Positions 2,731-23,445 of a stretch of 23,445 nt of DNA are shown one piece after another; the stretch's first letter is position 1; the number at the start of each line of letters is the position of its first letter. This DNA is from a virus, in the IMG/VR virus record IMGVR_UViG_3300032083_000291, positions 1 to 23,445 of that record. One strand, written 5' to 3'. The notes under the pieces were generated by a model that worked only from the letters and a program-made list of their open reading frames with translations, did no database searches and had not been told where the DNA came from. A program made the position numbers and the translations under genes.

Positions 2731-3434
2731 TGGCTACATCTATCGCGGATGACCTGCGTGAGTGGTCTATGAATGTCTTAGAAGTTCCTAACCTGCATTT
2801 AGATGGATTGCCTGCCTGCCCCTATGCAAAGAAAGCGTGGCAAGATAATAAAGTGAAAATAGTAGAAACTAAGAATATATACAAAGAGACACTAAGACAG
2901 TGTACTGAATTTACAGATAATAGATACGAAGTGGTAGTATGTGCTTCTTTTACTATACCTAACATGCAAGAGTTCAGTACGTGGTGTGAAGAACGTAATA
3001 ACCTACTAGCTAAACAAGACCTGCACATTATGGGTTTTCACCCTGAGTTTGGTGCAGAAGAAGCTGAATTAGATTTTCTATACGAACACAGTTGGGAGAG
3101 TTCCGTAAAGGATGAATACTGTATGGTTTTCATACAGTCACTATCTCAAGTAGACGACGCTAGTTTAAAATTAGAAAAGCTAGATTACTACAAAGTCTAC
3201 CCTGAAGACGAATATCAGGAATTAGTTATTAACAGAAGGACTAAGAGAAATGGCAATGAAACCCAGAGCAATGAAAAAGAAAATGATGCGCGGTGGAGGA
3301 GCAGTAAAAAAGCCAGCAGCAAAGATGATGCGCGGCGGCGGAGCAGTAAAGAAACCAGCAGCAAAGATGATGCGCGGCGGGACTACGGCGCTTCCGGGCG
3401 GGTTACCAAAAAGAAGCAGACTAAGCAACACTGA
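2730..3434 (+). CDS. Protein with CPYAKKAW and FHPEF motifs, C-terminus overprinted on the next gene
   Basis: 234 residues. The first about 172 form a folded domain with LPACPYAKKAW (C30), a central strand YEVVVCASFT, LLAKQDLHIMGFHPEF (H104) and LSQVDDASLKLEKLDYYK. The paired C-P-[FY]-A-K and F-H-P signatures resemble the CPFA/FHP layout of DUF1415-like proteins of unknown function; I give this link low weight. From residue 174 on, the frame runs for 185 nt inside the MRGG-repeat gene in another phase and encodes a low-complexity Lys/Arg/Ser/Asp tail (DDARRRSSKETSSKDDARR) that mirrors that gene's DNA repeats. The domain probably ends near NRRTKR and the tail is a read-on extension. TAATG start. 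Confidence 0.7.
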   Translation: MATSIADDLREWSMNVLEVPNLHLDGLPACPYAKKAWQDNKVKIVETKNIYKETLRQCTEFTDNRYEVVVCASFTIPNMQEFSTWCEERNNLLAKQDLHIMGFHPEFGAEEAELDFLYEHSWESSVKDEYCMVFIQSLSQVDDASLKLEKLDYYKVYPEDEYQELVINRRTKRNGNETQSNEKENDARWRSSKKASSKDDARRRSSKETSSKDDARRDYGASGRVTKKKQTKQH

Positions 3435-3915
3435 GGCATTTAAGAGGAGGACTGAGTTAAATAAAAAAGCACAGGCTGCACGAGCAGCCGGTCGCCCTGT
3501 AAATGCAACTACTGCTATAAAGCGAGCCAATGCTGCGATTGCTCTTGAGCGTAAACGTAAAAATGCTGCGGATGCTCTTAAGAGTAGACGTGATGAGGCT
3601 AGAGATGCTCTTAATCTTAGACGTGCTAAGGCTAAAAAACCTGTAGCTAAAAAACCTGTAGCTAAAAAACCTGTAGTTAAAAAACCTAGCAAATCTGATC
3701 CAAAACGAGAAGTAGCCTACGGTTCTAGTTTTGTAGATGATAGCGGAATGTATACGCCTAAAAAACGCGTTTCGCCATCCTCTAAAGCCTCTAAAGCTAT
3801 TGGTTCAGCAAAGATGATGCGCGGCGGAATGAAAAAGCCAGTAGCAAAAATGCGCGGCGGCGGAATGAAAAAGCCAGTAGCAAAAATGCGCGGCGGCGGA
3901 TTAAAAAAGAAGTAG
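3250..3915 (+). CDS. MRGG/KKPVAK repeat protein, probably nucleic-acid binding
   Basis: 221 residues, extremely basic and repetitive. The N-terminus carries two and a half copies of a 14-residue MMRGGGAVKKPAAK unit (residues 12-44). The middle is a helical Lys/Arg/Ala segment with RKRKNAADALKSRRDEARD, then three to four AKKPV pentads (residues 128-147). The C-terminus repeats MRGGGMKKPVAK and ends GGGLKKK. RGG clusters are typical of RNA/DNA-binding disordered regions, and AKKPV pentads resemble histone-H1-like or AlgP-like tails, so nucleic-acid binding or condensation is a fair inference. The ATG at 3250 has AGAAGGA at 3234-3240. I recall MMRGG-rich proteins from marine phage genomes without a known role. 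The first 185 nt overlap the previous gene. Confidence 0.7.
   Translation: MAMKPRAMKKKMMRGGGAVKKPAAKMMRGGGAVKKPAAKMMRGGTTALPGGLPKRSRLSNTEAFKRRTELNKKAQAARAAGRPVNATTAIKRANAAIALERKRKNAADALKSRRDEARDALNLRRAKAKKPVAKKPVAKKPVVKKPSKSDPKREVAYGSSFVDDSGMYTPKKRVSPSSKASKAIGSAKMMRGGMKKPVAKMRGGGMKKPVAKMRGGGLKKK
3283..3381 (+). repeat. 42-bp tandem direct repeat (2.4 copies)
   Basis: Units start with atgatgcgcggcgg at 3283, 3325 and 3367 (the last one truncated). They encode MMRGGGAVKKPAAK in the main frame and DDARRRSSK-type sequence in the overlapping frame. Copies differ mainly at silent positions of the main frame. Confidence 0.9.
3631..3690 (+). repeat. 15-bp tandem repeat gctaaaaaacctgta (3 exact copies plus a variant)
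   Basis: Exact copies lie at 3631, 3646 and 3661, with a variant starting gttaaaaaacct at 3676. They encode AKKPV pentads in the middle of the MRGG repeat protein. Confidence 0.9.
3814..3912 (+). repeat. 36-bp tandem repeat, C-terminal MRGGGMKKPVAK units
   Basis: Copies begin at 3850 and 3886, with a related shorter unit from 3814. The DNA shares the atgcgcggcgg core with the 42-bp repeat at 3283, so the two arrays probably derive from one another. Confidence 0.85.
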
Positions 3916-10627: not shown

Positions 10628-12316
10628 ATGCTAGAAAAACAAATGGAATTATTTGAAGAGGGTGGTCAGGTTGATCCCGTATCAGGCAATGACGTACCTT
10701 TAGGTAGCACGGAAAAAGAAGTACGTGATGACCAGCCTGCTATGCTTAGTGAAGGTGAGATGGTAATTCCTGCTGACGTTGTTCGTTATTTTGGCGTTGA
10801 GCATTTTATGAAGCTTCGAGATGAAGCTAAAATGGGCTACAAGAAAATGGAGGCTATGGGTCAATTTGGTACAGAAGAAGGACAAACATTACCAGACGAC
10901 ACATTATTTAATGCGGGTGGCCCACCTTTTACGATTGAGGATATTGAGGTTATTGAACCTGACGACTTAGAAAGCTTAGAAGGTGGTGAAGAAGATACTT
11001 TAGAAGCTAATGCAGGTGCCTTTGTTCAAGGAGGGCAGGGAACTAACCCTTTTGATAATAATGCTGCTACAACAGCAGGGCAACAATTTGCAGCAGGAAA
11101 ACCTATAACAGCTAGTAGCTTTAGTCAGCCTGCTTTTACATTTGATAGTTTTAAAGGTTTTTCTGGTCTTACTTCTGACTATATTCAAAGTTTTTTACCT
11201 GATGCTTTTAAAAATAAAAAACCAAAACAGGCTAATCTAGCTACTAACATATTAGATACATTTTATGGAGATAAGCTACGACAACAAGCTCAAGGAGCTT
11301 CCACAAAAGCTGGTCAAAGTGACCTACCAGATGCAGGAGGAAAATCTGATCTTTCTAGTGCTACACCCGGTATAGGATCAGTAAGTGAATTAATGAGTAA
11401 TCCTAGTACAGCTAGTTTAGGCTCTCTTGCAGGATTGGGTCAAATGTTAGACAGCACTATTGGTCGTGGTGTTTTAGGTTTTGCAGATTTAGCTATTGGT
11501 CAAGCATTAACCCCATCAACAGGCCTGATGGGACCAGTTGGCGGGCTTATGGCGACGGCATCTGCGCTTAGTCCTACTATAAGTAAGGGTTTTGATGTAG
11601 TAAACAATGTAGCTACTACGGACGCAAAAAAAGCTAAAGATGCAGCACTTTCTATAGAGTATGATTTAAGTAAAATGTCTCCGGCAGAAATTACAGACTT
11701 AAACACCTATGCACAATTTAATGCTATAAGTAATGTTACAGGTTACGACCCTACAGTAGACCCCGCTGTTAGTGCTGTTGGTATGACTTCTCAGGGAGTA
11801 CCCGGATTTTCTGTAGCGGGAACGTTTGGTGCCACATACGGGTGGAATGATGAGCTTGGCGAATTTGAAGTGGTAGCAGACAAACTTACCCCAACAGACG
11901 TTAATAAAGCTAAGACAACATCACAGAAGATGGCACAAAACGCTAAAAGCCATGTTAGTGCGGGTTTCACTGTCGATGAAGTTGAGGATGAAGACGACAT
12001 AGCAGATATTGATGATCCGGGTTTTGACCAATCTGCAACTACTGCTCCTGACTTTGACCCCAATGATCTTGGTGATGATGCTCAAGCTGATGCCGAAGCT
12101 GATGTTGATGATGCTGAAGCAACTTCTGCCGAAGAAGCGGGTGCGGGAGACGGTTCTTCTACAGGCGATGATAGCGGTAACGAAACTGAGGATGGAGATG
12201 ATGGAGCAGAAGGTGTAGGTGCAGCTAAAGGAGGATTAATCAAGCGTAAACCACGAAACAAAAAAAGAGGTGGAAGAAAAAGAAAGAAAAGAGGGGGCTT
12301 AGGTTCCCGAAAGTGA
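10628..12316 (+). CDS. Large protein with FEEGGQ and PAMLSEGEMVIPADVVRYFG motifs; acidic stretch and basic tail
   Basis: 562 residues, function unknown. Residues 1-80 are the conserved-looking part: FEEGGQVDPVSGNDVPLG, then STEKEVRDDQPAMLSEGEMV, IPADVVRYFGVEHFMKLRDE and AKMGYKKMEAMG. I know this segment from uncultured marine phage proteins. The middle (about 100-440) is Gly/Ser/Ala/Thr-rich with likely helices and Gly-rich hydrophobic stretches (SLAGLGQMLDSTIGRGVLGF). Residues 450-533 are very acidic (Asp/Glu/Ala), and the last 29 are very basic (AAKGGLIKRKPRNKKRGGRK and onward). An internal virion, ejection or assembly protein is plausible from its place between portal and scaffold. The ATG at 10628 has AGAGGG at 10616-10621. 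Confidence 0.75.
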   Translation: MLEKQMELFEEGGQVDPVSGNDVPLGSTEKEVRDDQPAMLSEGEMVIPADVVRYFGVEHFMKLRDEAKMGYKKMEAMGQFGTEEGQTLPDDTLFNAGGPPFTIEDIEVIEPDDLESLEGGEEDTLEANAGAFVQGGQGTNPFDNNAATTAGQQFAAGKPITASSFSQPAFTFDSFKGFSGLTSDYIQSFLPDAFKNKKPKQANLATNILDTFYGDKLRQQAQGASTKAGQSDLPDAGGKSDLSSATPGIGSVSELMSNPSTASLGSLAGLGQMLDSTIGRGVLGFADLAIGQALTPSTGLMGPVGGLMATASALSPTISKGFDVVNNVATTDAKKAKDAALSIEYDLSKMSPAEITDLNTYAQFNAISNVTGYDPTVDPAVSAVGMTSQGVPGFSVAGTFGATYGWNDELGEFEVVADKLTPTDVNKAKTTSQKMAQNAKSHVSAGFTVDEVEDEDDIADIDDPGFDQSATTAPDFDPNDLGDDAQADAEADVDDAEATSAEEAGAGDGSSTGDDSGNETEDGDDGAEGVGAAKGGLIKRKPRNKKRGGRKRKKRGGLGSRK

Positions 12317-14577: not shown

Positions 14578-15057
14578 ATGGCTACAATTACTGCTACTCT
14601 TGCTCCCGCTCGTGGCAATGAAGCTCGCGGGCGTCAACCCTACTATGTACAACAGATCATTGATTTGACTGCTAATAGCATCAACCCAAATGGTGATGTT
14701 GTACAGGCTCTAACCATTCCTGCCAACACAAAAATTCTGTCGGCTGGTTTTCAGGTTACGTCAAGTGCTACTCAAAATACAGGCACTGATGCCACTGCCA
14801 CTCTCGGCACTGGTGCAGATGCTGATGAGTACGTTACAGCATTTGATATTGACGGGGCTGCGGATGGTGCTTATGCACCTAGCGTTACCGTGTCGGCTGA
14901 TCTAGTAATTACATCTGCTGATACTCTTGATCTAACGCTTGCTGGTGGCGGCGCATCTTTCACTGCTGGTGAAATTCGTGTCTTTGCTTGCTTGCTAGAC
15001 GTTAGTGACAATGGTATTGCGACTGCTGATGAAGTAGATCGTGACACTCTAGCGTAA
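14578..15057 (+). CDS. Beta-rich virion protein, possible capsid decoration protein
   Basis: 159 residues, Ala/Thr/Gly/Asp-rich with alternating hydrophobic residues (VVQALTIPANTKILSAGFQV), no signal peptide and no Cys cluster. It sits directly after the major capsid gene with AAGGAG at 14563-14568 and before a hairpin terminator, so it shares the capsid promoter. The codon choice resembles that of the capsid gene. Together these suggest an abundant virion protein, such as a capsid decoration or stabilising protein. The position supports this more than the sequence does; no named family was recognised. Confidence 0.7.
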   Translation: MATITATLAPARGNEARGRQPYYVQQIIDLTANSINPNGDVVQALTIPANTKILSAGFQVTSSATQNTGTDATATLGTGADADEYVTAFDIDGAADGAYAPSVTVSADLVITSADTLDLTLAGGGASFTAGEIRVFACLLDVSDNGIATADEVDRDTLA

Positions 15058-15065
15058 GCTAACTG

Positions 15066-15102
15066 AGTATGGGACTGGGAGTTAACGCTCTCAGTCCCTA
15101 CT
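15066..15102 (+). terminator. Hairpin terminator after the capsid cassette
   Basis: GGGACTGGGAG (15071-15081) pairs with CTCTCAGTCCC (15088-15098), 11 pairs including one G-U, around the loop ttaacg. AGTA (15066-15069) and TACT (15099-15102) extend the stem past a bulged T. The bases after it (tatatt) are T-rich but not a clean T-run, so termination may be partial, or the hairpin may protect the 3' end of the capsid mRNA. Confidence 0.65.
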
Positions 15103-15124
15103 TATATTAAGTAAGGAATAAGCT

Positions 15125-15562
15125 ATGGCAATTACTACAGCAATGTGTAGTTCCTTTAAGCAAGAGCTTTTAGGAGGTGTACATGACTTAGATACACACA
15201 CTATTAAGATTGCCTTAATTAAGGCTTCTCCATCTGGTACATATAATGCTGCCACAACAAACTACTCAAATGTTACGGATAATAGTGATGAAGCTTCAGG
15301 TACAAATTATAGTGCGGGAGGTCAGAATTTAGATTCTGCCTCTATTTCTCTTTCTGGTACTACTGCCATAGTAGACTTTGCGGATGAAGTATTTTCAACA
15401 GTAACTGTGTCTACAGACGGCTGTATTATTTATAATTCTTCTGCTAGTAATAAAGCAATTTGTGTTATTGATTTTGGAGGTACGGTGGGTGCTGTTGCGG
15501 GAAACTTAACTATTTCCTTTCCTGCCGCAGACGCCTCAAACGCTATTGTTCGTATAGCTTAG
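15125..15562 (+). CDS. Small beta-rich virion protein (MAITTAMCSSFKQELL type)
   Basis: 145 residues. It starts MAITTAMCSSFKQELLGGVHD, followed by THTIKIALIKAS, then Ser/Thr/Gly strands with SAGGQNLDSASISLSG, VDFADEVFSTVTVSTDGCII and YNSSASNKAICVIDFGG. Proteins with this exact design (SFKxELLxGxHDxxxHTIKxAL ... IYNSSASNKAxxVxDFG) are common in marine phages and are taken as head or tail structural proteins. AAGGAATAAGCT precedes the ATG. It is the first gene after the capsid terminator and begins the tail and connector block. Confidence 0.75.
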   Translation: MAITTAMCSSFKQELLGGVHDLDTHTIKIALIKASPSGTYNAATTNYSNVTDNSDEASGTNYSAGGQNLDSASISLSGTTAIVDFADEVFSTVTVSTDGCIIYNSSASNKAICVIDFGGTVGAVAGNLTISFPAADASNAIVRIA

Positions 15563-15574
15563 TAATAATATATT

Positions 15575-15973
15575 ATGGCTATTATATTAGCTTCCGCTAG
15601 ATTTGGTTCCGGTAGATACGGTGTTTCTAAATATGGCGAAATTAATTTAAGTAAAACACTTACTGGTGTTTCTGCTACCGGCGCAGTCAATGCTATAGGT
15701 AGTATTACTACTAGTGGTTCAATACTAAGCGGTGTAAGCAGTGTAGGTTCTATAGGAACTGTAAGCCCCGATTTAACCGTTAATGTCACTGGTGTTTCAG
15801 CAACATCCGCAGTAGGCTCAGATATTATTACTGCAACGGGTGGTGGTTTAACAGGCGTACAGGGTACAACTAATGTTGGAGATACTACTGAGACTGCTGT
15901 TGTTTTTGACTACGTAGCAGTAAAGGCTCAGTATAGTAGAAAACGCTGCGTTTATATTTCGAGAGCAGCTTAA
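15575..15973 (+). CDS. Virion protein with GVSATGAVG-type repeats
   Basis: 132 residues. The N-terminus MAIILASARFGSGRYGVSKYG is followed by four imperfect repeats of about 20-25 residues built on LTGVSATGAVNAIGSI, LSGVSSVGSIGTV, VTGVSATSAVGSD and LTGVQGTTNVGDT. It ends with FDYVAVKAQYSRKRCVYISR. The SARFGxxRYG start, GVSATGxVG repeats and the FDYxAVKxxYxRxRxVYI end are features I remember from small structural proteins of marine phages. The repeats are likely short beta strands. Ends in TAATG with the next tiny gene. Confidence 0.75.
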   Translation: MAIILASARFGSGRYGVSKYGEINLSKTLTGVSATGAVNAIGSITTSGSILSGVSSVGSIGTVSPDLTVNVTGVSATSAVGSDIITATGGGLTGVQGTTNVGDTTETAVVFDYVAVKAQYSRKRCVYISRAA

Positions 15974-16146
15974 TGTCTACTACATATGAACGAACAGTAA
16001 ATGTTCCTTTTGAAAGTCGTCTTATATTTGTATCAAGACAAACGACAACAAACGATAGAACAGTAGATATACCAAAAGAAGATCGTTACGTTTATGTTGA
16101 ACGTCAACCAACTTCATTTGAACGAACAGTGTACGTAACGGAGTAA
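15973..16146 (+). CDS. Tiny protein of three ERTV repeats, probable virion-associated
   Basis: The ATG at 15973 overlaps the preceding stop (TAATG) and the frame is open to TAA at 16144-16146, 57 residues. The protein is nearly all an imperfect repeat of about 20-23 residues: YERTVNVPFESRLIFVSRQ, DRTVDIPKEDRYVYVERQ and a last FERTVYVTE. Each repeat is two short beta strands joined by a charged turn. Its exact fit between two virion-protein genes and its clear repeat make it a real gene. Comparable RTVxVPxExR small proteins occur in this place in other marine phages, as far as I recall. Role unknown. Confidence 0.75.
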   Translation: MSTTYERTVNVPFESRLIFVSRQTTTNDRTVDIPKEDRYVYVERQPTSFERTVYVTE

Positions 16147-16150
16147 CTCT

Positions 16151-16495
16151 ATGTCCTTTAAATGGCCTGTAAAAGACCCAGATGAAACATTAGACTACAA
16201 TGCAGATTGGTCACGCTTCTTAGGCGATGCGACAATTAGCTCTGTAGAATGGTATGTTAAAACTAGTGAGATTGGTAAAACACTTTTGGGTGCAGGACAA
16301 ACACTAACGACTGCATCTAGCAGTGCGGTTACTGATAGTATTCAAAATGTGTCTCAAACTAACACAACTACTGTTGCTACTATCAACATTGGTGGTGGTG
16401 TTACTAATAGAGAATATACTTTTTCTTGTAGAATGACAGACAGTACAGGCAGTACGGCTGAACGTACCATTAAATTAACAGTGAGAGAAAAATAA
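16151..16495 (+). CDS. Small immunoglobulin-like virion protein
   Basis: 114 residues. MSFKWPVKDPDETLDYNADW is followed by SRFLGDATISSVEWYVKTSE, then Thr/Ser-rich strands and YTFSCRMTDSTGSTAERTIK with a final LTVREK. Tryptophan in FKWP, a DYxxDWSRFL segment and an end in ERTIxLxVRE are typical of short beta-sandwich proteins coded before the adaptor gene in marine podovirus-like phages, again from memory. It lies 4 nt after the tiny ERTV protein and is TAATG-coupled to the adaptor gene, so it probably belongs to the neck or tail complex. Confidence 0.75.
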   Translation: MSFKWPVKDPDETLDYNADWSRFLGDATISSVEWYVKTSEIGKTLLGAGQTLTTASSSAVTDSIQNVSQTNTTTVATINIGGGVTNREYTFSCRMTDSTGSTAERTIKLTVREK

Positions 16496-17247
16496 TGGCG
16501 TACAATTTTCTCGGTCTAGTAAACGAAGTTAATAGGCGACTTAATGAAGTTCAGCTTACTTCTTCTAACTTTGACTCAGCTACAGGTTTTTATTCTCATG
16601 CGAAGGATGCAGTTAATGCTTCTATTCGTTATATTAATCAGTCTGAATTTGAATGGCCTTTTAATCACGTAGAACAAGAAGACGTACTAACAACAGGTAC
16701 TACTAGATACCCATTTCCAGATGACGCTAAGACTATTAATTTTGATAGTTTTAGAATTAAAGAAGACACTACATTAGGCAACAATACAAAAAAGCTAAAG
16801 AATGTAGCTTATGAAGAATATTTACATAAGTCTGTATCTCAAGAGTATAAAGCTACTGCCGATAACAATGCTCTACCTAATTATGTGTTTAATGCTCCTT
16901 CATTAGAATACGGAATGATTCCTCCACCAGATCAAGCTTATAGTGTAATCTATGAATACTATCGTGTTCCTGTTGATTTAGAAAATGCAACTGACGTTCC
17001 AGTTATTCCTGAAAGATTTAAGCACATTATTACAGATGGCGCTATGCACTACGCATATCTTTTTAGGGGTGATGCACAAGCGTCTACTATAGCTATGCAA
17101 AAGTTTGAAGACGGTGTTAAACATATGCGTAGCATTTTAATTAATAGATTTTATTATCTTCGTAGTTCTATGGTTAGTAACAATCAGGGAGGAGGACGTA
17201 TTGCTACATCATCTTCTAATGTAGGTTCTTCTTTGGACGCACTATAA
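16495..17247 (+). CDS. Head-tail adaptor, T7 gp11-like (tail tubular protein A-like)
   Basis: 250 residues. MAYNFLGLVNEVNRRLNEVQ is the typical N-terminal helix of podovirus adaptor proteins (LVNEVxxRL), followed by AKDAVNASIRYINQSEFEWP, a strand region with TTRYPFPDDAKTINFDSFRI, then EYYRVPVDLENATDVPVIPE and a C-terminal helical bundle (HIITDGAMHYAYLFRGDAQA). The order adaptor, then large nozzle-like protein, is the standard one for short tails (gp11/gp12 of T7, or gp4/gp10 of P22). It would form the ring connecting the portal to the tail nozzle. TAATG overlaps at both ends point to tight coupling with its partners. Confidence 0.75.
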   Translation: MAYNFLGLVNEVNRRLNEVQLTSSNFDSATGFYSHAKDAVNASIRYINQSEFEWPFNHVEQEDVLTTGTTRYPFPDDAKTINFDSFRIKEDTTLGNNTKKLKNVAYEEYLHKSVSQEYKATADNNALPNYVFNAPSLEYGMIPPPDQAYSVIYEYYRVPVDLENATDVPVIPERFKHIITDGAMHYAYLFRGDAQASTIAMQKFEDGVKHMRSILINRFYYLRSSMVSNNQGGGRIATSSSNVGSSLDAL

Positions 17248-19223
17248 TGGAAGCGTGGCAAACTTTTCCTATTGAGTTTAAAGGGGGTCTTGTAACCAAT
17301 TTAAGCCCTCTACAGCAGGGTATTAACGCTCCGGGTAGTGCTAGAGTGCTACGCAACTTTGAACCCTCTATTGAGGGCGGCTACAGGCGTATATTAGGCT
17401 TTGATAAATACGACAGTAATATTATTCCTGCATACGGTGCGCCTGTTGTACACGGAGCTAGCCAAAGTGGTACGACATTAATTATAGGTAACATTCATAA
17501 AACACCTGAAGCTGGAGACACGCTTACAGTTGCTGGTGTAACAGGTACATATACTATTGCATCAGGTGGTGTTAGTTATGATGCCACTAATCGTAGGGCT
17601 ACACTGACACTAACAGGTTCTTTAAATAGTAGTCCCGCTAATGCTGCGGCAGTTACGTTTACAACAACTACAACCAATCACAAGACTACGGGTGTAGCTG
17701 TATTTAACGACACAGTTATTGTACAGAGAAACTTTGATCTGTTTAAAACGGCAGGCTCTGGTTATACACATATAAATGTACCTAATTACGGTACTGTATT
17801 AGTTAATGGTGCTAGTCAAACCGGCACCTCTTTAGCTATGGACGCCTTAACTGCTGCCCCACAAGCGGGTGATGTATTTAAAGTTGCTGGTATTGATTTA
17901 GTTTATACAGTAACGGCAAATGCTACTGTAAGCAGTGGAGGCTCTACAGTTAGCATTAATCCTGCTTTAGCTAGTAGCCCAGCGGACAATGCAGCAATTA
18001 CATTTTTATCTACTTCTCGTGTGTCAGCTAATAGGTTAAGATTTACAAGATATAATTTTAATGGTACAGATAAAATTATGCTGGTAGATGGAGCTAGTGT
18101 TCCAGCTATTTTTGATGGCACTACTTTTACCGCTTTAAATACTGCCCCCTCAGATGTTGTGTCAGCTACTCACACAATTAATTTTAAAAATACATTGTTT
18201 TTTGCTAAAGGTTCTGCTATAACTTTTACAGCAGTGTATACTGATACAGACTTTAGTGCCGCTAATGGTGCAGGAACGATTAATGTAGGTGCTGACATTA
18301 CAGGTCTTTCAGTATTTAGAGAAACACTTTTTATTTTTACAAACGAAAGTATTTTTAGAATATCGGGATCAACTATTGCAGACTTTAAACTAGACCCTGT
18401 AACTAGAGATATTGGTTGTATTGAAGGCGACTCTATTCAAGAAATTGGTTCTGACGTTATGTTCTTAGGACCAGACGGTCTTAGACTACTAAGTGCTACA
18501 GAACGAATTGGAGACTTTAATTTTTCTAATGCTTCTAAAGTAATCCAAAGTGAGTTTACTAACTTTGTTAGTTCAAGCACTAACTTTTGTAGTGTTGTTT
18601 TGAGGTCAAAGTCTCAATACAGAATAATGGGTTATGGTGCCAGCATTTCAAAAAATAATGCTAAAGGTATTTTAACAACACAGTTAGCAGAAGAAGGTGG
18701 TGGTGGTTTTGCATTTGCTGAAACTAGAGGTATACAAGCATATGTTGCGGACAGCTATTTAAATGAAAATGTAGAACTGGCTGTATTTGCAAATAAAGAT
18801 GGTTATTTATACCAACTAGAAAACGGTAATACCTTTGATGGTGCTAATATCTTAGCTACATTTTCTACACCTCATATGCCAGTTTCTGACCCGCGTGTGC
18901 GAAAAACTTTCTACAAAATGTTTTTATATACGGACCCGCAGGGCAGCGTAGACTTTAACGCAGCATTAAAATTAGACTTTGATGGTAAGGATGTTATTCA
19001 GCCATCACCTATTACATTTAGTAATACTACTAGTACTGTTGCTTTTTATGGTACTAGCGCATATGGAACAGGATCATATGGTGGTAAATTACAATATGTA
19101 TTTGAAAGCCAATTAATTGGTTCAGGTTACACAGGTTCTTTGCAGTTTAGTTCAGACAGCACTGATCCGCCATTTTCACTAGACGCCGTTACTCTTGAGT
19201 ACGGCACAAACGCAAGAAGGTAA
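17247..19223 (+). CDS. Tail nozzle/stabilisation protein (T7 gp12 or P22 gp10-like) with duplicated inserted domain
   Basis: 658 residues. The N-terminus FPIEFKGGLVTNLSPLQQGI, NAPGSARVLRNFEPSIEGGY and RRILGFDKYD is typical of short-tail nozzle proteins. Later blades include ATHTINFKNTLFFAKGS, VFRETLFIFTNESIFRISGS, SDVMFLGPDGLRLLSATERI and KDGYLYQLENGNTFDG, beta-propeller-like. Two related inserts (residues 68-138 and 186-253) share GASQxGTxL, PxAGD, VAG and SSPAxNAAxxTF, so a domain of about 70 residues has been duplicated. The protein would form the hexameric tail tip below the adaptor. Coupled to the adaptor gene by TAATG and followed after 4 nt by the fibre gene. Confidence 0.8.
   Translation: MEAWQTFPIEFKGGLVTNLSPLQQGINAPGSARVLRNFEPSIEGGYRRILGFDKYDSNIIPAYGAPVVHGASQSGTTLIIGNIHKTPEAGDTLTVAGVTGTYTIASGGVSYDATNRRATLTLTGSLNSSPANAAAVTFTTTTTNHKTTGVAVFNDTVIVQRNFDLFKTAGSGYTHINVPNYGTVLVNGASQTGTSLAMDALTAAPQAGDVFKVAGIDLVYTVTANATVSSGGSTVSINPALASSPADNAAITFLSTSRVSANRLRFTRYNFNGTDKIMLVDGASVPAIFDGTTFTALNTAPSDVVSATHTINFKNTLFFAKGSAITFTAVYTDTDFSAANGAGTINVGADITGLSVFRETLFIFTNESIFRISGSTIADFKLDPVTRDIGCIEGDSIQEIGSDVMFLGPDGLRLLSATERIGDFNFSNASKVIQSEFTNFVSSSTNFCSVVLRSKSQYRIMGYGASISKNNAKGILTTQLAEEGGGGFAFAETRGIQAYVADSYLNENVELAVFANKDGYLYQLENGNTFDGANILATFSTPHMPVSDPRVRKTFYKMFLYTDPQGSVDFNAALKLDFDGKDVIQPSPITFSNTTSTVAFYGTSAYGTGSYGGKLQYVFESQLIGSGYTGSLQFSSDSTDPPFSLDAVTLEYGTNARR
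17448..18005 (+). repeat. Duplicated domain of about 70 residues inside the nozzle protein
   Basis: Copy 1 lies at about 17448-17660 and copy 2 at about 17802-18005. Shared elements in the same order are [VL]-x-GASQ-[ST]-GT, P-[EQ]-AGD, VAG, YT[IV] and SSPA-[ND]-NAA-[AV/I]-TF. The DNA copies have diverged, so this is an older protein-level duplication. Confidence 0.75.
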
Positions 19224-19227
19224 AATT

Positions 19228-22200
19228 ATGGGTACAGGATATACAAGAAACGACGGCTCTAACAACATTGCAGATGGCAACGTAATTAACGCTTCTGATC
19301 TTGACGGTGAGTTTGATGCCGTTGTAAGTGCGTTTAGTACGTCAGGCCATACACATGATGGCACTGCCGCAGAAGGCGGTCCTGTTACTGTATTGGGTCC
19401 GGTTCAAGATTTTGTAGCTACAGCTACAGAGATTAAACCTAAAACTACTAATACACTAAGTATTGGTACAGCATCTTTACAGTTTAAAGACTTGTATATT
19501 GATGGTACTGCATATATTGATGGCATTGGAGAAGACACTCTTGTAGCCACAGATAAGAAAGTACAGTTTCGTGATTCTGCTATTTTTATTAATTCTAGCG
19601 CAGACGGGCAATTAGATATTGATGCAGATACGACATTGCAAATTACCGCACCTACTGTGGATATTGATGCTTCTACAGCAGTTACTATTAGTAATGATCT
19701 TAAACTTAATAATGATGACGCTGTATTGGGATTGGGTGCTGATAATGATGTAACACTAACTCATATTCCAGATACAGGTGTTAGACTAAATACTACAAGT
19801 GCTGTTCAGTTTAGGGATTCTGCCTTATCTATTAACTCTAGCACAGATGGTCAGCTAGATATTGACGCTGATACAGAAATTGAAATTACAGCACCTACTG
19901 TCGATCTTACAGCCTCTACGGCAGTCACAGTTAGTAACGATCTAAAACTAGCAAGTGACGCTGCGGTTTTGGGCTTTGGTGCTGACAATGATGTAACACT
20001 AACACACGTTCATAATACAGGTGTTCTACTAAATGACGCTATGGCTATTCAAATTAGAGATAGTGGTTTGTCCATTAACTCTAGCACAGATGGTCAGCTA
20101 GATATTGATGCAGATACAGAGATTGAAATTACTACTGGTACACTAGATATTAATGCTACTACTACAGACATTAGTGGTGCCTTAGATGTAAATGGTGCGT
20201 TGACTGCATCTGATACTGTAGACATTCAAGCTACGCACCCTACCGGCACCTCAAACGTCGGTTTTGGTAGTGGCACCTTTGCTGCGGTAGAAGCGGGGGC
20301 CACCCTCAACACAGCTATGGGTGTCAATGCCCTACAAGACTTGACTACGGGTAACAGTAACACAGCTATTGGGTATCATGCCGCTCTTAATGCCACAACA
20401 CCAGTTGGAACTATTGCTATTGGTAGAGAAGCTATTGGTTCGGGCATAACAACAGGTAATTACAATACGGCTATAGGCTATCAAGCTGGCTATGATTTAA
20501 CCAGCGGTACTTCCAACCTTCTTTCGGGCTATCAAGCAGGCTATAGTCTAACAACTGGCGATGGCAACGTATTCTCTGGGTATCAAGCAGGCGAAAATGC
20601 AACTACTTCCAATTATGCTATTGCTATCGGCTATGGCACTATGGGCACAGGTGTTGTTACCGGCACAGATAACACCGCTATTGGACGAAACGCAGGTGCA
20701 GATTTAACCAGCGGCATATACAATAATTTTATGGGCTATACAGCAGGCTTTAACGCAACTACTGGTGAGAGCAACATCGCTATTGGTAGACAGGCTATTG
20801 GCTTAGGCGTTCTTACTGGCTCAAACAATGTTGCTCTTGGCTATCAAGCTGGCTACGATTTAACCAGCGGCGATCACAACATTTTTTCGGGGTTTCAAGC
20901 AGGCGCTAATGTAACCACAGGTACGGGCAACATATTTCAGGGCAACGAAGCAGGGGAAAATGCAACTACTGCTAGTTATGGCATCGCCATAGGTCACGAA
21001 GCCATTGCATCAGGCGTTATGACGGGTAATGATAACACCGCTATTGGTCGAATAGCCGGTCACGATTTAACCAGCGGCACATTCAATAATTTTATAGGTT
21101 ATTTCGCTGGTGCTAACGCAACTACTGCTACAAATACAATCGCTATTGGTACTACCGCAATTAGTTCAGGTGTCCTAACGGGAACGGATAATATCGCTAT
21201 TGGTCGTCTAACTGGCAACGATTTAACCAGCGGCACCTACAACAACTTTATCGGCTACACATCAGGCGCTAACGCAACTACTGGCAATTACAATGTCGCT
21301 ATCGGCTATGCACCAATCAACACAGGTGTTCTTACTGGCGATGATAATATTGCTATTGGTCGTCTAGCAGGTAGAAACACAACTACTGCCAGCAACACTA
21401 TAGCTATTGGTAGAAACGCTATTGGCTTAGGTGTTCTTACTGGCACTACTAACACCGCTATTGGCTATGGCGCGGGTCAGGATTTAACCAGTGGTACTTA
21501 TAACAACTTTATGGGCTATGAAGCAGGCTTTAACGCAACTACTGCCGCTAATACAATCGCTATTGGCCGTTCTGCTATTGGCGTTGGTGTCCTTACTGGC
21601 ACTGATAACCTCGCTATTGGTAATGCTGCTGGGGCCGATTTAACCAGCGGCACCTACAACAACTTTATGGGCTATAGAGCAGGCTTTAACGCAACTGAAG
21701 CCAACAACACTATCGCTATTGGTAAAAACGCTATTGGCTTAGGTGTTCTTACTGGCGATGATAATGTCGCTATTGGTAATGGTGCTGGCACCGATTTAAC
21801 CAGTGGCGCAAGCAACGTCTTTGTTGGCTACATAGCAGGCGGTAACGTAACCACAGGCGCTGACAATACAATTCTCGGCACGAATGCTGGTATCTCACTA
21901 ACAACCGGCAGCAACAACACCATCATTGGACACGACGCAGCCCCAACATCCGCTACCGTTTCTAACGAGATTACGCTAGGCAATGGGTCTATTGCGACCA
22001 TCCGCGCTCAAGTTACGTCCATCACTGCACTGTCAGATCGCAGAGACAAGAAGGACATTAAAGACCTGTCCGTTGGTCTGGACTTTGTTAACTCGCTGAA
22101 CCCAGTCGAGTTCACTTGGAACATGCGTGATGGCGCTAAGGTTGGGCAGAAGGAAGCAGGCTTCATTGCTCAAGAATTAGATGAAGCGCAGCAGGATGCT

Positions 22201-22347
22201 GGCGTTGACGAAATACTGAATCTTGTGTTAAAATCTAATCCAGATAGATTGGAAGCCACTCAGGGTAAATTAATTCCTGTTCTAGTTAAGGCAATTCAAG
22301 AACTATCTGCTGAAGTTAACACGTTAAAGGAAAGACTAAATGCCTGA
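19228..22347 (+). CDS. Tail fibre with YadA-head-like repeats and S74 self-cleaving chaperone
   Basis: 1039 residues from ATG 19228, which follows AGAAGG (19215-19220) by 7 nt; an upstream ATG at 19195 lies inside the nozzle gene and is less likely. The N-terminus (GYTRNDGSNNIADGNVINAS, then DLDGEFDAV and HTHDGTAAEG) is the marine phage fibre anchor. Residues 112 to about 290 are three 81-residue repeats (VQFRDSAIFINSSADGQLD-type). Residues about 361-905 are some 32 modules of 17-18 residues like YadA adhesin heads (NTAIGYQAGYDLTSG). The end is a Peptidase S74 chaperone, SDRRDKKDIKDL onward, with Ser936 the likely cleavage residue, then a coiled coil. It would form trimeric host-binding fibres. 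Confidence 0.88.
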   Translation: MGTGYTRNDGSNNIADGNVINASDLDGEFDAVVSAFSTSGHTHDGTAAEGGPVTVLGPVQDFVATATEIKPKTTNTLSIGTASLQFKDLYIDGTAYIDGIGEDTLVATDKKVQFRDSAIFINSSADGQLDIDADTTLQITAPTVDIDASTAVTISNDLKLNNDDAVLGLGADNDVTLTHIPDTGVRLNTTSAVQFRDSALSINSSTDGQLDIDADTEIEITAPTVDLTASTAVTVSNDLKLASDAAVLGFGADNDVTLTHVHNTGVLLNDAMAIQIRDSGLSINSSTDGQLDIDADTEIEITTGTLDINATTTDISGALDVNGALTASDTVDIQATHPTGTSNVGFGSGTFAAVEAGATLNTAMGVNALQDLTTGNSNTAIGYHAALNATTPVGTIAIGREAIGSGITTGNYNTAIGYQAGYDLTSGTSNLLSGYQAGYSLTTGDGNVFSGYQAGENATTSNYAIAIGYGTMGTGVVTGTDNTAIGRNAGADLTSGIYNNFMGYTAGFNATTGESNIAIGRQAIGLGVLTGSNNVALGYQAGYDLTSGDHNIFSGFQAGANVTTGTGNIFQGNEAGENATTASYGIAIGHEAIASGVMTGNDNTAIGRIAGHDLTSGTFNNFIGYFAGANATTATNTIAIGTTAISSGVLTGTDNIAIGRLTGNDLTSGTYNNFIGYTSGANATTGNYNVAIGYAPINTGVLTGDDNIAIGRLAGRNTTTASNTIAIGRNAIGLGVLTGTTNTAIGYGAGQDLTSGTYNNFMGYEAGFNATTAANTIAIGRSAIGVGVLTGTDNLAIGNAAGADLTSGTYNNFMGYRAGFNATEANNTIAIGKNAIGLGVLTGDDNVAIGNGAGTDLTSGASNVFVGYIAGGNVTTGADNTILGTNAGISLTTGSNNTIIGHDAAPTSATVSNEITLGNGSIATIRAQVTSITALSDRRDKKDIKDLSVGLDFVNSLNPVEFTWNMRDGAKVGQKEAGFIAQELDEAQQDAGVDEILNLVLKSNPDRLEATQGKLIPVLVKAIQELSAEVNTLKERLNA
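19561..20100 (+). repeat. 243-bp tandem repeat (two full copies, one partial) in the fibre gene
   Basis: Copies start at 19561, 19804 and 20047, each opening with [VI]Q[FI]RDS and NSS-[AT]-DGQLDIDADT. Period exactly 81 codons. The third copy is cut after about 35 residues and passes into ITTGTLDINATTTDISG. Confidence 0.9.
20308..21945 (+). repeat. YadA-like module array with a 156-bp super-repeat
   Basis: About 32 modules of 17 or 18 codons in three classes: A (IAIGxxAIxxGVLTGxD, 18), B (NxAIGxxAGxDLTSGxx, 17) and C (NNFxGYxAGxNATTxxN, 17). The B-class string gatttaaccag is identical in eight copies at 20494, 20701, 20857, 21064, 21220, 21481, 21637 and 21793. Intervals are 156 or 207 bp, with one of 261, which fit whole-module additions. 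Confidence 0.92.
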
Positions 22348-22975: not shown

Positions 22976-23445
22976 ATGGCTGCCCCATATACCAACATTA
23001 AATTTTCTGATGCTGCTATGCCACGCATTGCACAAGCAACAGGCTATAGTAATCCCAACTATAATAAGGCGGGATTCCAACAGTTTCTAGCTCAGAATCC
23101 AGATGCCAAAGCTAAGTATGATCAATTTCAGCAGCAGGCTGTAGGTACTATGATGGCAGCTAGAGGTGGTGTTGTCAAGTTTGTTGATGGTGGAATGGTT
23201 AAAAAAGTTAAACGCTTTGATGACGGTGGTGATGCTGGTGATGACGGGGGTGATGCTAAGACACCTGAAGAAATAGCTGAAAAAGAAGCGGCAAAATTAA
23301 GATTGTCTACAACTGGTGGAAATACTACAACTGGTGGAAATACTACAACTGTTTCTACAACTACACCTACTGTTTTATCACCCGAAGACATTACTAAGAA
23401 TACTGATAGATTATCAACACTAAGTAAGTTTGATCCCAATAAACT
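22976..23445 (+). CDS. N-terminal part of a protein with RGGVVKFVDGGMVKK motif (runs off the window)
   Basis: Open from ATG 22976 to the window end, 156 residues visible and no stop reached. Residues 1-58 look folded: MAAPYTNIKFSDAAMPRIAQ, ATGYSNPNYNKAGFQQFLAQ and NPDAKAKYDQFQQQAVG. Then comes MMAARGGVVKFVDGGMVKK (59-77), the GG-hydrophobic-basic motif, followed by an acidic Gly/Asp run. After that is a Thr/Gly region with an exact 18-bp repeat (23309-23326, 23327-23344, acaactggtggaaatact). GATTAAGATATGG gives a usable ribosome binding site. The pairing of this motif with a disordered acidic tail is like the 10628-12316 protein. The function is unknown. Confidence 0.75.
   Translation, partial: MAAPYTNIKFSDAAMPRIAQATGYSNPNYNKAGFQQFLAQNPDAKAKYDQFQQQAVGTMMAARGGVVKFVDGGMVKKVKRFDDGGDAGDDGGDAKTPEEIAEKEAAKLRLSTTGGNTTTGGNTTTVSTTTPTVLSPEDITKNTDRLSTLSKFDPNK

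Follow-up and report, generated by a model that had tools for sequence, protein, structure and literature searches.

The window analysed here, the whole 23,445-base stretch of a virus record in IMG/VR, encodes a marine phage tail fibre that contains a long array of short modules of three classes, A, B and C. The locus raises the question of why the modules follow one another in a regular A-B-C order, and what that order implies for the fold of the array, its place in the fibre and the way in which it changes.

Layout of the fibre gene

The window carries genes for terminase, portal, major capsid and tail proteins. The fibre protein matches PHROGs 23837, 4636 and 6002 (virion structural or tail spike), and the two genes preceding its gene match phrog_10775, a tail protein, together with mixed tail and virion families. 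The gene and its main parts are as follows.

16495-17247 and 17247-19223: two tail genes directly before the fibre gene.
19228-22347, + strand: tail fibre gene, 1039 amino acids (open reading frame and translation).
19228-19530, + strand: N-terminal segment, residues 1 to about 101, boundary approximate.
19564-20132, + strand: proximal repeat region, 2.3 copies of a 243-bp (81-residue) unit (Tandem Repeats Finder).
20308-21966, + strand: array of 32 modules, residues 361-913 (module parsing, permutation test and lag-3 autocorrelation).
22033-22203, + strand: Peptidase_S74 intramolecular chaperone domain, residues 936-992 (Pfam PF13884).

The N-terminal segment is the fibre part most widely shared among viral contigs and is presumed to be the tail-attachment end. 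Over residues 1-196, identity to the tail fibre of Roseobacter phage CRP-345 is 58%. This isolate appears in a paper on HMO-2011-type phages (PMC9038755); its fibre is likewise preceded by two tail structure genes, and the likeness may point to a Roseobacter host. The 81-residue units upstream of the module array are a second, different repeat type of the same fibre, and residues 184-245 give a weak Pfam match to DUF3540, below the cut-off for that family.

Module classes and their order

The original prediction of about 32 modules in three classes was confirmed by module-by-module parsing, which gave 32 contiguous units: 9 A, 11 B and 12 C under a rule that uses module length and the residues at module positions 11-12 and takes any 18-residue module as class A, the counts depending on this rule for intermediate modules (denoted by lower-case b and c). 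Class A has 18 residues and is of the GVLTG type, class B has 17 and mostly reads DLTSG, and class C has 17 and is of the NATT or NVTT type. The final C module is degenerate; once it is counted, the array extends to 21966, beyond the end at 21945 first proposed.

The module order is BCABBCABCABCCABCABCACABCABCABCBC. Cyclic steps (A to B, B to C or C to A) make up 27 of the 31 neighbour steps, a number matched by none of 200,000 shuffles (shuffle maximum 22), and the regular order predicted for the array is thus real. Self-similarity of modules within the fibre is highest at lag 3 (z = 4.5), and Tandem Repeats Finder independently reported 156-bp periods at 21022-21366 and 21376-21807, with 75-78% matches. 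Eight modules have a strict DLTSG motif; they start at 20464, 20671, 20827, 21034, 21190, 21451, 21607 and 21763, at intervals of 207, 156, 207, 156, 261, 156 and 156 bp. The earlier reading of 207 and 261 bp as additions of 51 and 105 bp holds, but the 156-bp interval occurs in four of the seven cases rather than five. Among the units that are not three modules long are the following.

20773-20979, + strand: four-module unit A-B-C-C, 69 residues (clustering of 69-residue units).
21292-21396, + strand: two-module unit A-C, 35 residues (module parsing).

Conservation of the order in related fibres

Fifteen related metagenomic fibres, with 457 distinct modules among them, keep the A-B-C order. 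Their steps are A to B 141 times, C to A 136 times and B to C 163 times, against off-order steps of BB 24, CC 22, CB 14, BA 5, AC 1 and AA never; these family counts include some double counting because the 15 fibres are not independent, L082 being flagged as having the same array as L083, with an identical unit in both. The distance between successive A modules (n = 126) is 52 residues in 91 cases, 69 in 27, 86 in three, 104 in two, and 35, 87 and 119 in one each, the 35-residue case being the A-C unit at 21292-21396. Hence 122 of the 126 spacings equal 52 residues plus or minus whole 17-residue modules, the exceptions being 87, 104 (twice) and 119. This agrees with the expectation that length would change in whole modules and that homologues would differ in module number by such units: they vary almost only in steps of 17 residues. 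Module position 3 is Ala in 92% of A and 71% of B modules, and Phe in 67% of C modules.

In most members of the ordered group lag 3 gives the highest peak, whereas the similarity-by-lag test gave no such peak in distant 17-residue fibres. The original prediction supposed that homologues would share the order; this is so within the ordered group but not among the more distant fibres. Single-protein queries placed the relatives in viral contigs and the more distant ones in bacterial genomes. Several relatives align only from about residue 305-361 onward, so ordered arrays sit behind differing N-termini. The best nine-module matches among 50,697 phage records were 34-41% identical, and thus no named isolate in that set has a close array relative. 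The same kind of repeat occurs in Pelagibacter phage HTVC111P, Roseobacter phage CRP-1 and virus vir515 (37-41% identity over nine modules), and the HTVC111P fibre also has an S74 domain; unlike the window fibre, HTVC111P and CRP-1 lack both a regular 18-residue class and the lag-3 order. In another related fibre (L056, 6413-9511), modules repeat at lag 4 (z = 5.1) rather than 3, which suggests that other ordered super-repeats exist.

Predicted fold of the array

Two AlphaFold2 monomer models were obtained, one of the C-terminal half (pLDDT 68.7, pTM 0.60, with pLDDT below 50 over much of the chaperone) and one of nine in-register modules (pLDDT 80.1, pTM 0.74); alignment A3, whose overlapping rows were drawn from repeated units, may favour a regular model. 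The array is predicted with moderate confidence to be a beta-solenoid. In both models each module, whatever its class, has the same strand at positions 2-4 and forms one coil; in class A the second strand is shorter or absent. With one coil per module irrespective of class, these moderate-confidence monomer models imply that the classes would be successive layers along the fibre axis and not faces. Foldseek searches of the models against the PDB gave no significant match, nor did searches of array profiles against the PDB. Against predicted viral structures, Foldseek gave seven matches at E <= 0.001 (best 2e-6, TMq up to 0.83), and two of the matches listed are named as intramolecular-chaperone proteins.

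Relation to YadA-type adhesins

The modules had been described as YadA-like, a term that stands as a resemblance only, as the Pfam and PDB searches for YadA did not support it. The Pfam family YadA_head (PF05658) had no match at E <= 1 in the whole fibre protein; among 39 nine-module blocks, 7 matched, with a best E of 0.17, and none reached the cut-off. The YadA coil has 14 residues (15 in UspA1), whereas modules here have 17 and 18. Filing the array under YadA_head was rejected on the failed Pfam and PDB searches. With regard to left-handed beta-rolls, a solenoid is predicted, but without a significant PDB match. For the anchor barrel of trimeric autotransporter adhesins, the Pfam scan found no anchor family, and the C-terminus is instead a Peptidase_S74 domain; the position of the fibre gene within a phage tail region is likewise unfitting for such an adhesin. 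In a Flavobacteriaceae metagenome-assembled genome (L140), one minus-strand frame contains both a PF05658 match and 17-residue modules, a possible link between YadA-type and 17-residue repeats that hints at kinship.

The closest parallel is the C-terminal head of BpaC, which is a trimeric autotransporter adhesin; this head is a left-handed parallel beta-roll (Kiessling 2022, PMC9543794). It has a 42-residue super-repeat of three layers, GDN-GEN-GSN, so that ordering in threes was already known (PMC9543794), and the statement that typical YadA repeats are not so ordered was too strong. The phage array, as predicted, shares two features with the BpaC head: many short coils stacked at length, with a glycine that does not vary, and a super-repeat of three layers in regular order. 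BpaC, however, is a bacterial surface adhesin with 14-residue coils of a single length in almost identical copies, whereas the phage array has coils of 17, 17 and 18 residues, units about 62% alike and an order common to many phage proteins. YadA-type domains are already known in marine phage structural proteins. A literature search for left-handed beta-roll phage tails found none, and a 17/17/18-residue triplet order conserved across a phage fibre group was not found described in the literature searched. The element that appears to be new is this triplet order across a group of phage fibres, threefold ordering itself being known.

The chaperone domain and the orientation of the fibre

The Peptidase_S74 domain scores 51.7 bits against a PF13884 cut-off of 22, and profile matches in the PDB are confined to it (two tail fibre proteins and a neck appendage protein). 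Its predicted catalytic residues, both invariant in alignment A2, are encoded as follows.

22033-22035, + strand: Ser936, predicted scissile residue.
22048-22050, + strand: Lys941.

In T5 pb1 the corresponding residues are Ser1264 and Lys1269, and the chaperone is removed once the protein has folded (PMC4690869). The window fibre shares the Ser-Lys spacing of five with T5 pb1 (PMC4690869) but differs in what precedes the chaperone, which is another domain type in T5 pb1 and here the array, reaching to about 22 residues from the predicted cut. An analogous cut here would place the end of the mature fibre near residue 935, some 22 residues past the array. The array would be the distal end of the fibre if S74 is released by cleavage, as happens in other fibres, and its original description as a shaft is doubtful. 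An array that is the distal end and not a passive shaft would change where host specificity should be sought.

How arrays change

Comparison with close relatives revealed patchy divergence in two parts of the array.

20490-20608, + strand: 119-bp patch in modules 4-6 with all ten SNPs relative to L002 (DNA comparison).
20541-21658, + strand: array part without a significant DNA match in L003 and L006 (blastn).

Relative to L002, ten sites differ in the first 2550 bp of the gene, every one within the patch, and seven residues are changed; the 5 kb upstream of the fibre gene differ at 11 sites. L004 has the same ten differences and one more, while L096 has the window-type patch (2 differences in 139) and is about 90% identical where aligned over the array start. 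No patch donor above about 84% was found outside the closest relatives. L003 and L006 are 94% identical to the window over 15025-20541 but have a different array in its place; the L006 match resumes near 21658 at 85%, and that of L003 ends earlier. Metagenomic contigs can possibly be chimeric within repeats, which would mimic such an exchange.

Blocks are also shared among fibres. Single-linkage clustering at 72% identity puts 18 of the 27 four-module (69-residue) units, the one at 20773-20979 included, into one group that is found in 13 of the 15 fibres. In 87 of 90 cases a 52-residue unit is matched more closely by a unit of another fibre than by any of its own fibre, and adjacent units are 63.6% identical, against 62.6% for units of different fibres. 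These values indicate that exchange explains the arrays better than recent tandem duplication, which the within- and between-fibre identities do not support as the main source of length. The A-B-C order is common to uncultured phages of one group, which seem to trade module blocks, and the sequence comparisons point to recombination as the likely cause of the patches. In the YadA-domain tail fibre protein ORF108 of cyanophage S-TIM4, 15 SNPs in 120 bp are attributed to recombination between similar regions of the same genome (PMC6224464). Both are phage structural proteins with SNPs clustered in a short region; those of ORF108 are synonymous and arose in laboratory evolution, whereas the ten in the window fibre change seven residues and separate natural variants, and the account of ORF108 in its available part describes no class order (PMC6224464).

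A diversity-generating retroelement or errors of assembly might instead account for the patchy divergence, and the confinement of the variation to one short patch would fit either. However, the changes are not limited to adenines, and DGR-like mutation was rejected on that pattern; no reverse transcriptase was found among ten other proteins scanned in this record, which is a fragment. Assembly error is countered by the same ten differences in L002 and L004, which are different records, and by the window-type patch in L096. We consider this alternative to inter-fibre recombination improbable.

Origin and meaning of the order

Overall, the following account is probable. In the distal half of the fibre, the array would form a beta-solenoid with one coil per 17- or 18-residue module, similar to the head of trimeric autotransporter adhesins. 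Trimerisation and folding of the fibre are probably the work of the S74 domain, which would then release itself by a cut before Ser936; the solenoid would remain as the outermost, cell-facing part and may bind the receptor. The A-B-C order would be an inherited stacking grammar, with C before A and A before B, in which extra 17-residue layers are nearly always placed in the B/C part, and arrays may diversify mainly through in-register exchange of blocks between related fibres.

What maintains the order can be read in several ways. One proposal assigned the classes to distinct faces of a trimeric beta-roll, a picture that the fixed order of three classes and a probably threefold fibre might suggest. 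This is very improbable: each module forms a whole coil in both models, the classes are largely equivalent in structure apart from the shorter second strand of A, and units of two, four and five modules would break the assignment to faces. Alternatively, the order may be an accident of descent, in which tandem duplication of one ancestral block of three modules set the order, and duplication and recombination of 52-residue blocks have preserved it, with no structural need for three layers. The restriction of threefold order to one group, while 17-residue repeats of the same kind in other fibres lack it, is consistent with descent, as are the nearly identical strand pattern of all classes and the 156-bp periods in the DNA. 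However, units do not arise mainly by recent local duplication, and class-specific positions (Ala or Phe at position 3) are fixed despite much divergence, which suggests selection. We regard descent as a serious possibility, if somewhat short of an even chance. In a third reading, which we hold plausible but rather doubtful, three-layer units give the best packing in the core or at the interface of a trimer, as proposed for BpaC; C layers, with bulky Phe or Leu at position 3 and a varied, often small or polar position 4, would alternate with Ala-Ile layers. The residue profiles of the classes favour such packing, but four- and five-module units are tolerated (27 and 3 of 126 A-A steps), and the matching of positions to the 14-residue numbering is itself tentative.

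A more specific form of the stacking grammar, which at present seems somewhat unlikely, is a modular code with obligatory C-A-B neighbours and a variable B/C slot, such that exchanged blocks would always restore a stable solenoid and the fibres would form a recombination-ready library of adhesins. Should the grammar stem from packing rules, it would show how phages can extend and rearrange the host-facing section of a fibre while the fold is kept, and the distinct modules of the 15 fibres are a ready data set for learning such rules. Even if descent is its only basis, the order clearly marks the exchange of blocks among uncultured marine phages.

Other repeats in the window

The proteins encoded at 3250-3915 and 10628-12316, which have no PHROG match, and the protein at 23160-23445 contain repeated stretches rich in Gly, Lys and Arg (KKPVAKMRGGG, GGLIKRK and VDGGMVKK).
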